The position numbers and the translations under genes are program-made. A stretch of 64,000 bases of DNA from Ulota crispa (taxonomy: Eukaryota > Streptophyta > Bryopsida > Orthotrichales > Orthotrichaceae): assembly GCA_963920765.1 (NCBI GenBank), contig OY987244.1, forward strand, positions 4,466,501 to 4,530,500. The letters are read 5' to 3'. Below the pieces are notes generated by a model, which had not been told where the DNA came from, searched no databases, and worked only from the letters and a program-made list of their open reading frames with translations. Position 1 is the stretch's first letter; the number at the start of each line of letters is the position of its first letter. Of this stretch, positions 7,112 through 13,168 are shown piece by piece.

Positions 7112-10100
7112 TCAAAGGGAGTGCATGGAGGGAAGCCTGGTTGGGGGCACCATTGACTCCAGCTCTTTGTTCCGTTGCTCCAATTCGTTATACGACTTCT
7201 GCAAAGTCTCATACTTTCTCTGTGACTCAGCCGAGCCCGCTTCCAGTTCTTCAATTCTGGACTCCAACTGCTTGAGGTAGATAATGGCGTCTCCGAGAAT
7301 GGAAGCTTTGTCTGCCTGCAGTTGTGCCCAACAAATCAGATCTCTACAACTGGTTTAACCCCTGATCGCCTAAGGTCCAAAGACACCTAAAACCGTCCTT
7401 GCTTTTGTCTAAATGTCAATAAAGTATGAAAATATCAATTGCACAATCTTGTAGTGTGCATGTTATAGATGATATGGATTAAATTTGGGGTTATTTGACT
7501 ACATAGATTGGATGATTAGAATGTTTTAGTGTTAAAAATAGATGCTGAAATTTTCCTAAAAACACATTTGGAGGTGAAGTTTGATTTTAAACCTACACAA
7601 ATGAAAAAAATTTAAAAGGTAAAATGATTCAAAACCAAAATATAAAACACATTGGTGAAAAAAAATATCATTCAATAAACTCATTGTGTTTGTAAAATTA
7701 TTTTGAAATGTCAAAAAACAGTGCAAAATGTAGCAAAAAATCACATCTATGGCTAAACCTCCCTCTACTAAAATACTTCTCCTTCACTCATAAATTCTTG
7801 AACTGATATGAAAATTTTATCATAAAAACTAGACTAGTATGCACAACTTTACTAACAAGTTTTACTGTATTCAAACACAGCACTTCAAATTGGAGTGCTA
7901 GACTATTGGAGGACACTTTTGGTCCCTTAGGAGAGGAGGGGTTAAGTAGGAAAGGCGCTTGCTTGTTGCTGTAGTAATGCATTCAGGGGAGAAAGTATGA
8001 AACCTAGAGAATATTTTCATACCTTTGAAATGATGGGAACCAAGTTCCGCAACGCAGCAAAATTCTCCTTTTGCCTCACTCTACGGCGTCTCTCTGCCAT
8101 CATGTGAGTCATGGCTGCTTCATCGTGCCCATGATGCACTGCTCCCATAATGGCACTCCTGGATCCGCCTCGAGGTCGCCTCTGCCCTCTCGGTAGAACC
8201 TGCAACAAAAGATTTCAAGGAAATATAAAAAACCTCTTCATACTACAGCCATGCACCCCTAAAAAACTTCGTTTTGCATACAATATCACGATCTTTGCCA
8301 CGTTGGAATTTCTTATCTAGTATACGAACTAGAACGCACGTGAGAAAACTAGACCCAGAACTAGTATTCGGCCGTCCGTTTTGATGGGTTCTGCATGGAA
8401 TAGGTAAATTGGAAAAAATGAAGGAACCATTCTGTACTCCACCTTAATCTTACATCAGGAAATGTAGGCACAGGCATTGCTCAAATGTTGTGATTAGTGA
8501 AGATCTTGGAAGCAGTCATTGAGGCTTCACTATTGTACAAGAAAATGCATGCATGTTTTGTTGTGATATGCTAATATATACATATTGGCAAAGCCCCAAA
8601 ATGTACTGTTTTTTCCCAATTTATTTACCTAACGTAGTGTTATGGGAGATGCACATACCGGGTCAAAGGGGTCTTGGGCGATGTTATAAGCAACAGTCTC
8701 AGGACTGGAGCTAGACGCCAGATGCTGAGCTGGCACGTTGTGCACCACCGGCTGCGATTCAGTCTGGACAACCGGCAACTTATTAGTCACATGAGAGATC
8801 TGTTTCATCATGTCGAAACACCGGCGTAGAAGATCCTGGCTGGGACAACCGGTCTTCTTTTGGGCCTGGACACGTGCCTGTCGCCAGGGCTTGAACGATT
8901 TTGACTCGAGCTGCTGTTGAAGCCCCCCGTAGTGCTGAGTTCCATTGGATGCTCTTTGGTGGGGATTTCCATTGTTGGGGTTGTTGGTGCCTGAATCCAG
9001 CAGGTTCATGTGACTCATGTGGGCCGTCTCCGGTGAATGGAAACTGTTACAGTAGGTTTCAGTTTCCAGTGGCTCCCCTTCCAGCATCAATCTGATGGCG
9101 TCCAGCTGGTTTTCGTGAGTTACTAGTAACGATGGTGTTCTGATGGTGTCCTCGAGCTGATTCCGCTCTGGGCTAAGGGACGACGCTCCTCTGAAAACCA
9201 AGCCAAACTGTTCAGTACTCCACATGTATCACCATCACGAATGATAGAAAGCATCAATCAATATGCCGTAGATCGTGTAAATGTCGATAGAACACCATAT
9301 TAGGTGAATTGGGAAAAATGTGACTTTTTATTTTCTTTTGCCAGTATGTACACGTTCAGCATATTACAAAAAAAACCAGCGTGCACTTTCTTGTACAATA
9401 GTGACGTCTCAATGATTGCCTCCAAGAACTTTACATAATTACAACGTTGAGCTGTAGCTATGCCTGCATATACTGTATGTGGGATTAAGCTGGAGTACAA
9501 AATGGTGTCCCTCCATTTTTCCCAATTTATCTAATATGATGTTATAGAGAGCAAGGAGTGACAAAAAAAAAAGAAAAAGAAAAAATGATTTGTAGGAGGA
9601 GACTTTGATTGATTACCGTCTGGGAGGGGAGCTGGTGTTGGAATGCGAGGGTCGGCGTTGGCTGGAGGTCCTGAGAAACACGTTCTGCTCGGGAGAATCT
9701 CCAGACAGCCGAGTCGACACCGCCTCTTCCAAGCTGCTCACGCTGGAGGATGTGGTGCCAGAGCGGGACCTGTCCTGCCCGCGGGTCCGGCCTGGGATGG
9801 GCGGGTAGTATGCTTGCTTAGCAGTCGTCTGCACCATGCCAGCTGTTGCTGCTCCTGCTGATGCTGCTCTTGCAGGTAATGCTGGCACCCCATAGCTGAT
9901 CCTTAAAGCTCCATCTATTGCAAACACCATATTAGGTGAACAGATGGACCATTTTGTACTCCACCTTAATCTTACATACAAACCCGATATTTGTTAATTT
10001 GGGAAAAATAGGTATCTCTCTTTGTATTCCACTTGAAACCCAAAAAGTTACTTTAAAAAACCAGATTCAAAAGTATCAGATTCAGTCTGAGCCACTAAGA

Positions 10101-13100
10101 TTTTTTCCCTCGCAAATTCTTCCTCTCAAATGAGGACACGTGTAGGTTTTAGGAGGTCACCTGAAACCTTCATATCAAAATTCTGAAAATCCCAAAATGT
10201 ACAATTTTTCCCAAATTAACAAATATCAGATTTACAGTAAATCTAAGCATAGTTATAGCTCAAAGTTGTAATTGTTTGGAATTTTTGGAGACAATCCTAT
10301 ACAAGAAAATGCAAGCTTGATTTTTTGTAATATGCTAATATATACATAATGACAGAAATAGTGAAAGTTCCATAATGTATTGTATTCCGAATTTACCTAG
10401 TACGGTGTTTGCAGCTGGCAGCAACATGTTGTCGGTGTTCATGCCGACTTCCTTCCCTTCCGCATCTTCTAAGGATATGTGTGACGTGCTAGCCGATCTG
10501 TCCCAAGAGTACATATTCACAATCCAGCGTTAGTTTCTGAAACATGATATTTGTTAATTTGGCAAAAACTCATTCCCAAAACAGGTTTTGGGATACTGAA
10601 TTTTGCATTTGTGTGAACAATTTGGTGATTTGAAATGAGGTTTTTGATAGCTCCTTCAAGATGTTTCATCATTGATGTAAGGTCTTGAAGAAATCATGAT
10701 CATAAAACTCACTCTAAATCATTAAAAATCTCTTATAACCATAAAATCCAAAAGTCCCAAAATGCATCTTTTTTTCCCAAAGTAACGAATATAATGTTTT
10801 TCTACTGTAGTGGGAAGTGCATGAGCAAGCAATCCACGTCAGCATTGAAACTAGTTTCAAAACATCTAACGCACACACAGGCACTCTATTTGAAAAGACG
10901 TCAAGCTATCCCGTGTCTCTCAAACCTTCTCCAAGTGAAAGTCTCGAACTTAGGCAAATGTGAGTGCAGGCATACTTGCCACTGTATTTTTTTCCAGTTG
11001 GGAAAGACTAAGGTTTGGTGTAGTTTGTACCTTCTGAAGATTTGCTGGATTAGGGAATTGGTCTCGAAGGTCTGGGTGTTGATATTGTCAGACAGATGTT
11101 TCAAGGGAATCAACGATGAGCCGGAGCTCGGTTGCATCATAGGAAGAGAGGATAGTGGAAAGCTTAAAATTGCTTGGGATATGATCTGAGAATGACCGCT
11201 GGCTTGTTGCTCACGCACTGCCACGAGTTCCCTCAAAAACCATCTCCGGATTTCTTCCATCAGACCCAGATTCTCCGGAAACTGTCGTCAAGCAATTCCC
11301 ATGAAACCACATTCAATCAATACAGATGTACGAGTAGACCAAATTCGCATAGACAACGCACATCGCTTGGAGTTTAATAACTGCAATATATCAAATTATT
11401 GGCACTTTTTGAGACCCTCAGATGTAACCTAGCCACCTTGACTGAATTTGAGCACAGTGATGCCTTTCATGACAGTTTTTGAATCTTCTGTTTAAGCACA
11501 TCATCTACTCCAAATTAGTGGTCACTACAAGCTGTTGTGCTTACATTATCACAAGTGCCGAGCTCCAGAACTCCCTCGGTCCAGGGAATGAATATCGCAG
11601 TCTGGAAAGAACACAAAATAAACAAAGCTCACGTCACTTCATGAGGTAATGAAAAACTGTGAAGGAAATTTTGGAAATTTATGCTCTTTTAATAATAAAA
11701 TTTTCACAAACACCATTATGTGCAGACAAGTTTTTGATAAAGAAAACAGGTATTTTTATGAGGCTGCTCTTGGTATGCACCAAAAATTATTAACAATTTA
11801 TCTGGTAACAATATTTGGAAAGCCTGAAAAGAAAGAAAACTTCAGCTACGTACCGAGATCCTGGCTCGACGTAGAAACTCGGCTAGCTCTTCAGATCCAG
11901 CATTCTCTAGAACACTTGGTCCATACATCCAAACGTTGCTGCCTTTTGCATACGCCATAGCTGCAGACCTGCAGATATTGCAACAAGTGCTCAGTGCCTG
12001 CGAGTCCAAGTACTCGATAACCATCACTCGGATTTGCAAAATTGCCCATTCTCATTCAAGAGAACCGGTAAGTCCACTGATCATTCCTCCTCAGCGTGGT
12101 TAAGCCCAACCTTTTGCTCTGAAAACAGAGTACGGACGGGAGTGCTAAACTTTCCATATTAAAGATTTCTGAGCACCAGCTCTGGCTTCTCTCAACCCCA
12201 CAAGTGCCAATTTGCAAGTAAATTGACCAAGTCGAGCCAAACTACTCCCACAACTGAAAATTTCATAGCATTTCGGTGCCCTAAAAATAGAGCATTTTAA
12301 AGATTTTCTACTGAATTGTCTCAGCGCTAACACACCCGGGTGCGTCGTGGTCGTTGCTAACTGATCATATTAAATCTAGTATCAAAGCCACCGCAATCTT
12401 CCAGCCCCTACAGACCTAAAGAGCTCGCTGATCCGGAGCCCTGAAAAATGGTGTAAGTGGCCACTACCGCGTGGAAAAGCTCTAAATTTTAAAAGGAAGA
12501 AAAAACTCTTACCCGCAGTGTGGTCCGAATTGGCAGAACTTGAACGTGTAGTTGAAAAAATTCTCGTTCCGGTCGTGCGTGTCGGTATGCTGCCAGTGAC
12601 CGCACAAATATTCCAGGTTCCTGAAACAGAAGCCAATTCAGAACTACGTCACCCCTCAGATTGCCCAATCAACAGACTCAATGAATTCCTTTAATTGCGC
12701 AGAATTCGACAGGGTCACTGGAACTCGGAATACCAAAGTGGCATTAGAACACTCTCAAGTCTCAATTCCCAGGATTAATCACTATTGCACAATTCCTACA
12801 GAAAATTTGGCAAAAATGGCAGTTTGCAGAAAAGCTTCTCATTTGCTCCCCAAAACTATTGGTTGTGTGAATTCACTGGGGATTCTACTGTTTCCTGCAT
12901 TGCACAATTTTCCTTGGAGAACTTCGATTGTGCTGGCACAGAATTTGAAACGTGACTACAGGAGTACTCTGGGACTACTAAAACTGCAACCTTTGGGGTT
13001 CCTTGGGGGGTGTCATTTTATAAACCTGGTTTGAGGGTTGAGCGACCACAGGGCCACGTAGGACCATTGCAATTCCTGCACCAAGACCTGAAGCCGCGCC

Positions 13101-13168
13101 TGCAAACGTGATTGCTCAGAATGTTGGAGCAGCGGTCCGGCCATCGATTGCACTTGTGAGTAGCTCAT
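7112..13168 (-). CDS. bHLH transcription factor with MYC-type N-terminal domain (IIIf/GL3-TT8-like)
   Basis: Predicted nuclear DNA-binding regulator. Exons in gene order: 13168-13026, 12620-12513, 12463-12416, 11968-11854, 11601-11545, 11281-11031, 10497-10397, 9914-9617, 9190-8659, 8199-8023, 7315-7112; all are GT-AG and in phase, giving about 677 aa. Residues ~20-172 read as a bHLH-MYC_N domain: LQWSYVALWSLNP, then FRSAAMAYAKGSNVWMYG, then TAIFIPWTEGVLELGT and FPENLGLMEEIRRWF. The basic region has H583, E587 and R591 (HMMAERRRR), the E-box-binding set, followed by helix-loop-helix and a coiled-coil tail (LESRIEELEAG). In the family this type acts with MYB and WD40 proteins in pigment or epidermal programmes; that role is inferred. 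The start is the first in-frame Met, with a stop upstream in frame. Oddities: MITEs occupy introns 6-9, intron 7 looks MITE-made, and the exon 2/3 junction needs a very short intron. Subgroup assignment is tentative. Confidence 0.88.
8399..8641. mobile_element. Family B MITE in intron 9 of the bHLH gene
   Basis: About 243 bp, with one shortened end (AATAGGTAAATTGG) and the other ending CTAACGTAGTGTT. It is flanked by the 4-bp duplication ATGG (8395-8398 and 8642-8645). It sits about 16 bp inside the intron from the exon 9 donor in the gene sense, and shares the interior with other B copies (TTAATCTTACAT, TGCTAATATATACAT). Confidence 0.75.
9291..9543. mobile_element. Family B MITE in intron 8 of the bHLH gene
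   Basis: A 253-bp element with ends AACACCATATTAGGTGAATT and ATCTAATATGATGTT and an exact ATAG target duplication (9287-9290 and 9544-9547). Unlike intron 7, it lies well inside an intron (9616-9191) that has its own donor and acceptor outside the element. Confidence 0.85.
9923..10409. mobile_element. Family B MITE forming intron 7 of the bHLH gene
   Basis: The ends are AACACCATATTAGG on the left and TACGGTGTT on the right, flanked by a perfect 4-bp duplication TGCA (9919-9922 and 10410-10413). It is about 230 bp long once the nested family C element and its duplication are removed. In the gene sense the terminal repeat contains the donor used by exon 7 (CTAG/GTAAAT at 10397/10396). The acceptor AATAG/AT (9915/9914) lies just outside in host exon sequence. 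Intron 7 (10396-9915) is therefore almost exactly this element. Confidence 0.85.
9981..10232. mobile_element. Family C MITE nested inside the family B element
   Basis: Starts AACCCGATATTTGTTAATTT and ends AAATTAACAAATATCAGATT, flanked by TACA at 9977-9980 and 10233-10236. The interrupted family B interior (cttaca/cagtaaatctaagcat) matches intact B copies across the join. Length 252 bp; no coding capacity. Confidence 0.85.
10541..10798. mobile_element. Family C MITE in intron 6 of the bHLH gene
   Basis: Ends AACATGATATTTGTTAATTT and AAAGTAACGAATATAATGTT form a degraded inverted repeat of the C type. The target duplication is not clean. It lies inside intron 6 (11030-10498). Confidence 0.65.

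Follow-up and report, generated by a model that had tools for sequence, protein, structure and literature searches.

The accessible part of Yenerall and Zhou (2012; PMC3443670) lists 35 transposon-born introns from Oryza, Drosophila, Oikopleura and Zea. In the portions available of the survey by Gozashti et al. (2022; PMC9860276), introners with 4-bp duplications are reported from Symbiodinium and Chrysochromulina and none from land plants. The available text of a 2025 review of plant MITEs covers alternative splicing caused by MITEs, with no mention there of a constitutive intron born from a MITE. The corresponding part of a study on the MSH1 introns of green plants cites introners, with none demonstrated. 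The kind of event described here is already known, because transposon-born introns and introners have been published. The particular event is not named in the literature searched, most subscription papers being outside the reach of that search. To our knowledge, it is rare to find an intron birth in which splice sites, element and target duplication can all still be read. We put the probability at roughly 0.85 that, in the window (the whole stretch of 64,000 nucleotides analyzed), a bHLH gene received a MITE in one of its coding exons and that this element became intron 6 of the gene by means of a donor in its own repeat.

The bHLH gene and the features within it are given in Table 1. The splice sites of the ten-exon model were set by eye, and the frame is open throughout. 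When the protein with the element taken out is submitted to Pfam, it matches PF14215 (bHLH-MYC_N, 3.5e-15) and PF00010 (HLH, 7.6e-10), so named domains lie on both sides of the insertion. The junction itself is in Ala/Ser-rich surroundings outside both of them. Intron 6 (10396-9915) is MITE over nearly its whole length. An earlier note on this DNA had called it intron 7, which differs from the ten-exon coding model in numbering only, and had it coincide with a family-B MITE flanked by TGCA on both sides; its location, the repeats and the duplication are all found as described. Over 22 nt, the inverted arms (9919-9940 and 10392-10413) show 86% complementarity.

Table 1. Positions of the bHLH gene, its inserted elements and one comparison locus.
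Feature	Position	Strand	Remarks and basis
bHLH-MYC_N / HLH transcription-factor gene	7112..13168	-	from ATG to stop in ten coding exons
bHLH exon 6	10397..10497	-	includes 13 MITE-derived nt; ten-exon model
Exon 7 of the bHLH gene	9617..9914	-	ten-exon model
Predicted GT-AG intron 6	9915..10396	-	482 bp; donor CTAG/GTAAAT, acceptor TTTGCAATAG then A; predicted splicing
Family-B MITE, AACACC...GGTGTT	9923..10409	-	487 bp including nested family-A element; repeats, duplication, consensus
First 13 nt of the MITE, now exon in the model	10397..10409	-	AACACCGTACTAG; sequence and ten-exon model
Branch-site-like CTAAT in 3' terminal repeat	9931..9935	-	read from sequence
TGCA target-site duplication, 5' copy relative to the gene	10410..10413		sequence
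TGCA target-site duplication, 3' copy relative to the gene	9919..9922		sequence
Nested family-A MITE	9981..10232		252 bp; TGTA duplication at 9977-9980 and 10233-10236
Second family-B copy, in the next intron (9616-9191)	9291..9543		duplication ATAG; repeats and gene model
MITE with B-type ends in exon of Rubisco-activase-like gene (L107)	G000:C3:30906448-30907103		Pfam and alignment

The assignment of the element to family B stands for 231 bp of it, its length once the nested element is subtracted together with the 4 bases that the duplication of the nested element added; the remainder of the 487 bp is the nested family-A MITE plus TGTA. With the family-A MITE taken out, the host element matches the family-B consensus at the insertion point. 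Because of this restored consensus and the separate TGTA duplication, the order is read as family B before family A, with the family-A MITE apparently entering the bHLH intron after it had formed. Family A is itself repeated, being matched at 86-92% identity by at least 39 other genomic places among the 40 of 5116 candidates that were scored, the query included. The divergence of 7.4% from a family-A consensus is rough, being taken from a mixed set of 28 rows that includes the copy in the window (L009). The family-B consensus, 257 bp long, was built from 23 copies other than the bHLH copy. Against it, with the nested element excluded, the bHLH copy shows 26 differences in 231 aligned bases (11.3%) and three indels, which are 1, 15 and 10 bases long. 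The donor GTAAAT, the CTAAT motif and the last 15 bases of the copy equal the consensus, while 10 bases nearby are deleted. The second family-B copy, in the next intron, is an ordinary intronic insertion, in contrast to the one in intron 6. A degraded family-B-like element also lies at ~8400-8650, in the intron preceding the HLH exons of the same gene.

The coding consequences of the insertion can be read directly. When the element and one TGCA are removed, the frame runs continuously as ...LLPAAIDGALR..., in agreement with what had been claimed for the coding strand. Without splicing, translation would end within the MITE, whose 25th codon is a TAG stop. The donor falls within the terminal repeat and the acceptor reaches into former exon, as previously proposed; the acceptor, TGCAATAG, is composed of the TGCA duplication and former exon sequence and holds the first AG downstream. 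Predicted splicing from CTAG/GTAAAT to TGCAATAG would yield ...LLPAANTVLDGALR..., a gain of three codons (+9 nt) in frame. The replacement of one Ile by Asn-Thr-Val-Leu, also foreseen, is borne out as ATA giving way to AAC ACC GTA CTA in the predicted spliced product. The candidate branch A, at 9932, lies 17 nt away from the final base of intron 6, and the CTAAT around it is branch-like by the branch-site consensus. A TAG acceptor and a 17-nt branch distance are acceptable, short of ideal. We infer that the spliceosome uses the sites at 10396 and 9915 in vivo and that the bHLH gene is functional.

The events that would account for this arrangement are as follows. A family-B MITE would have inserted into the bHLH coding exon between the GCA and ATA codons with a 4-bp target duplication. 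Its upstream terminal repeat would have supplied a ready 5' splice site, AG/GTAAAT, 13 nt in. Since the repeats are inverted, AG/GTAAAT would lie 13 nt inside whichever end is upstream. At the downstream end, the opposite repeat would offer the CTAAT branch-like site in its final 13 nt, and the host would provide the 3' splice site as the first downstream AG, that of TGCAATAG, from duplication and exon. Splicing would then remove nearly the whole element at the cost of exchanging one Ile codon for Asn-Thr-Val-Leu, and the family-A MITE would later have landed inside the new intron. We simulated insertion of the consensus element at each of the 1941 coding positions of the bHLH gene, using the first AG if it fell within ~38 nt and in the same exon. 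The frame was kept at 653 positions, and 349 of these (18% of all positions) were also free of a stop. The real insertion position is among the 349 that are rescued.

Family B is abundant in the genome. With up to 2 mismatches allowed, 3316 occurrences of its end, AACACCATATTAGGTRAATTGGGAAAAA, are found in 275 Mb and 0 of the reversed control. We took 62 distinct pairs of ends that face each other at a distance of 230-290 bp, chosen without any condition on a duplication, and compared the four flanking bases. They match at 4/4 in 35 pairs, 3/4 in 14, 2/4 in 11, and 1 and 0 in one pair each, and a 4-bp target-site duplication is therefore normal for elements with B-type ends. Together with terminal inverted repeats, high copy number, short length and no evident coding capacity, a duplication of constant length identifies these elements as MITEs. 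Among the open frames at 27 loci with an unpaired end, read by eye for an autonomous partner, none was recognized as a transposase. Outside the bHLH gene, B-type elements are also found in introns beside CSA-like and pectate-lyase-like exons, judging from translations read by eye.

We assembled a sample of 58 distinct copies, 200-300 bp long, in which each of the two B-type ends has no more than 4 mismatches and the duplicated bases agree at 3 or 4 of 4 positions. The duplication is perfect in 44 of them, 26 have a B interior, and the bHLH copy was added by hand. The sample is not random: its sources include 30 perfect-end loci on contig C1, 30 loci on C1 and C2 in which the duplication and the one base after it end in AG, 20 loci with AG four bases past the duplication, 10 loci hand-picked (6 + 4) for acceptor-like or G+C-rich letters, and chance copies in the window and in other fetched loci. 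The donor octamer AGGTRAAT is present in 81 of the 116 terminal repeats of this sample (73 as AGGTAAAT, 8 as AGGTGAAT) and in 43 of the 52 repeats of the copies with a B interior (37 and 6, respectively).

Across their rejoined flanks, 35 of the 58 copies gave 58 open frames of at least 50 aa. Besides the bHLH frame, 14 spanning frames were submitted to Pfam, the Rubisco-activase frame among them being delimited differently, and two matched: Rubisco activase (L107) and a K+ transporter C-terminal domain (L036). Two of the 58 copies are placed in exons by homology, those of the bHLH gene and of the Rubisco-activase-like gene, and one is in frame; this count is a lower bound because only those 14 frames beyond bHLH went to Pfam and most genomic copies are outside the sample. 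The L107 match to Rubisco activase (1.1e-13) stops before the junction, and an activase of solved structure aligns with the rejoined flank across the junction, over 63 of 63 query residues. The neighboring Rubisco-activase-like copy (L109) has this exon unbroken. Between the L107 element and a donor-like GTAGTA there are 8 bp, counting the duplication. We rejected it as a second new in-frame intron: the donor in its terminal repeat would lead to an in-frame TAG, and the downstream part of the gene copy looks decayed (L110). The K+ transporter case is read as intronic because an acceptor-like TTTTGCAG separates the element from the coding part. A copy by a WD40 gene, CSA-like by eye (L032), is likewise read as an intronic insertion. 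At another locus (L103, G000:C7:4436747-4437402), a copy with B-type ends is followed immediately by an acceptor-like TTTTTTGCAG and then by a short stretch resembling an exon. We read it as an insertion near an existing acceptor rather than an exon-born intron, and the older intron may take its branch site from the terminal repeat of this copy. For a copy outside the 58 (L062), one of two Pfam queries was without a match and the other gave FBPase_C at 0.041, below the cut-off.

A paralogue offers a view of the gene without the element. Among four fetched paralogue loci, one on the minus strand (L049, G000:C9:14564000-14573500) is the sole match in this part of the protein, and the other three (L050, L051 and L052) have no significant match there. 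Its alignment to the bHLH stretch has a z of 9.7, with 0 of 1000 shuffles as good. By eye, L049 has a single unbroken exon where the bHLH gene has intron 6. Its introns fall at the positions of bHLH introns 5 and 7, read as phase 2 in both genes. LLP before the insertion point and PALPA after it are common to the two proteins, with gaps flanking the junction on both sides. The intron is absent, then, from an element-free homologue, in the form of one paralogue of the same genome. Within this one genome, the evidence for gain is the duplication together with a single diverged paralogue. No empty allele was seen among the 40 of 5116 candidates scored, the 499-bp stretch having one full-length match. 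Several MITE-like ends were observed in the introns of L049 itself.

The element could instead have entered a pre-existing intron, its ends coming to lie at the splice sites by accident. B-type elements do occupy other introns, both in this gene (9291-9543 and ~8400-8650) and elsewhere. Against this, both TGCA copies are flanked by in-frame coding sequence, no residue of an intron is left without the element, and the one informative paralogue has a single exon at that point. We therefore regard a pre-existing intron as very improbable. It is somewhat less improbable, though still distinctly unlikely, that the MITE is exonic and is not spliced or is spliced inefficiently, leaving a truncated MYC_N protein or a pseudogene. 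The splicing is predicted, and the comparable exonic insertion in the Rubisco-activase-like gene gives a stop in a copy that looks decayed downstream. In the bHLH gene, by contrast, the downstream exons are open and HLH is recognized despite the 11% divergence of the copy. The donor, CTAAT and the last 15 bases are also unchanged in spite of the deletion of 10 bases close by.

The strength of the open-frame argument can be calculated. All 403 codons downstream of the insertion are open. Under neutral substitution, the probability of no stop among them is 0.013 at 11.3% divergence, 0.045 at 7.4%, 0.13 at 5%, 0.28 at 3% and 0.42 at 2%, and ~14 indels would be expected in these codons at the indel rate of the bHLH copy itself. 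Divergence from the consensus is an upper estimate of the age of the insertion. Because it overstates the time since insertion, we take the open frame as support for splicing and not as proof. Open downstream exons would also be explained by a separate promoter or start that keeps the downstream coding part, in which case the intact frame is silent on splicing. That account needs an unseen promoter, while the spliced model preserves frame and phase unaided, and we give the separate promoter or start hardly any credence. The earlier note's central claim, that a MITE created the intron, is supported by the unbroken exon in the paralogue, the 4-bp duplication usual for these elements and the intact coding sequence downstream of an apparently old insertion.

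The same note described the case as introner-like. The term fits the mechanism, with the donor carried and the acceptor borrowed. Recurrence was not seen: no second in-frame exon-born intron was found among the 58 copies, whose flanks were searched in part for coding homology. Introners are families of many similar introns, in the available text of PMC9860276, whereas family B has one in-frame case here. We consider it doubtful that family B is a land-plant introner that presents donor and branch-like site in either orientation and has produced dozens of such introns in this genome.

What the locus adds is that the capacity to be spliced can apparently be read from the sequence of the element, with a strong-looking 5' splice site in one repeat and a branch-like site in the other. 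The question of why some transposons turn into introns becomes, in this form, a countable prediction for one genome. A land-plant case is of interest next to the 2022 survey, the accessible part of which is without land-plant introners (PMC9860276). The genome also encodes a SAM_LFY (LEAFY-type) domain, matched at 1.2e-27 and in 0 of 14 control genomes, and this domain and bHLH-MYC_N together indicate a land plant or a close relative of land plants. The transposon-born intron is a known kind of event, and the bHLH intron is a new, well-supported example of it. As far as the available text of PMC3443670 describes them, the Zea and Oryza introns are the same in that an exonic DNA element is removed by the spliceosome, as we infer for bHLH. 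The bHLH case differs from those in combining a MITE and a 4-bp duplication with a donor and a branch-like site in the repeats and a borrowed acceptor. Among introners, in the accessible sections of PMC9860276, those of Chrysochromulina belong to a family without terminal inverted repeats, which family B has. Insertion is accompanied by a gain of codons in the introners of Aureococcus and in the bHLH gene alike (PMC9860276, same sections), and the Chrysochromulina introners resemble the bHLH intron in carrying the 5' splice site and co-opting the 3' splice site.
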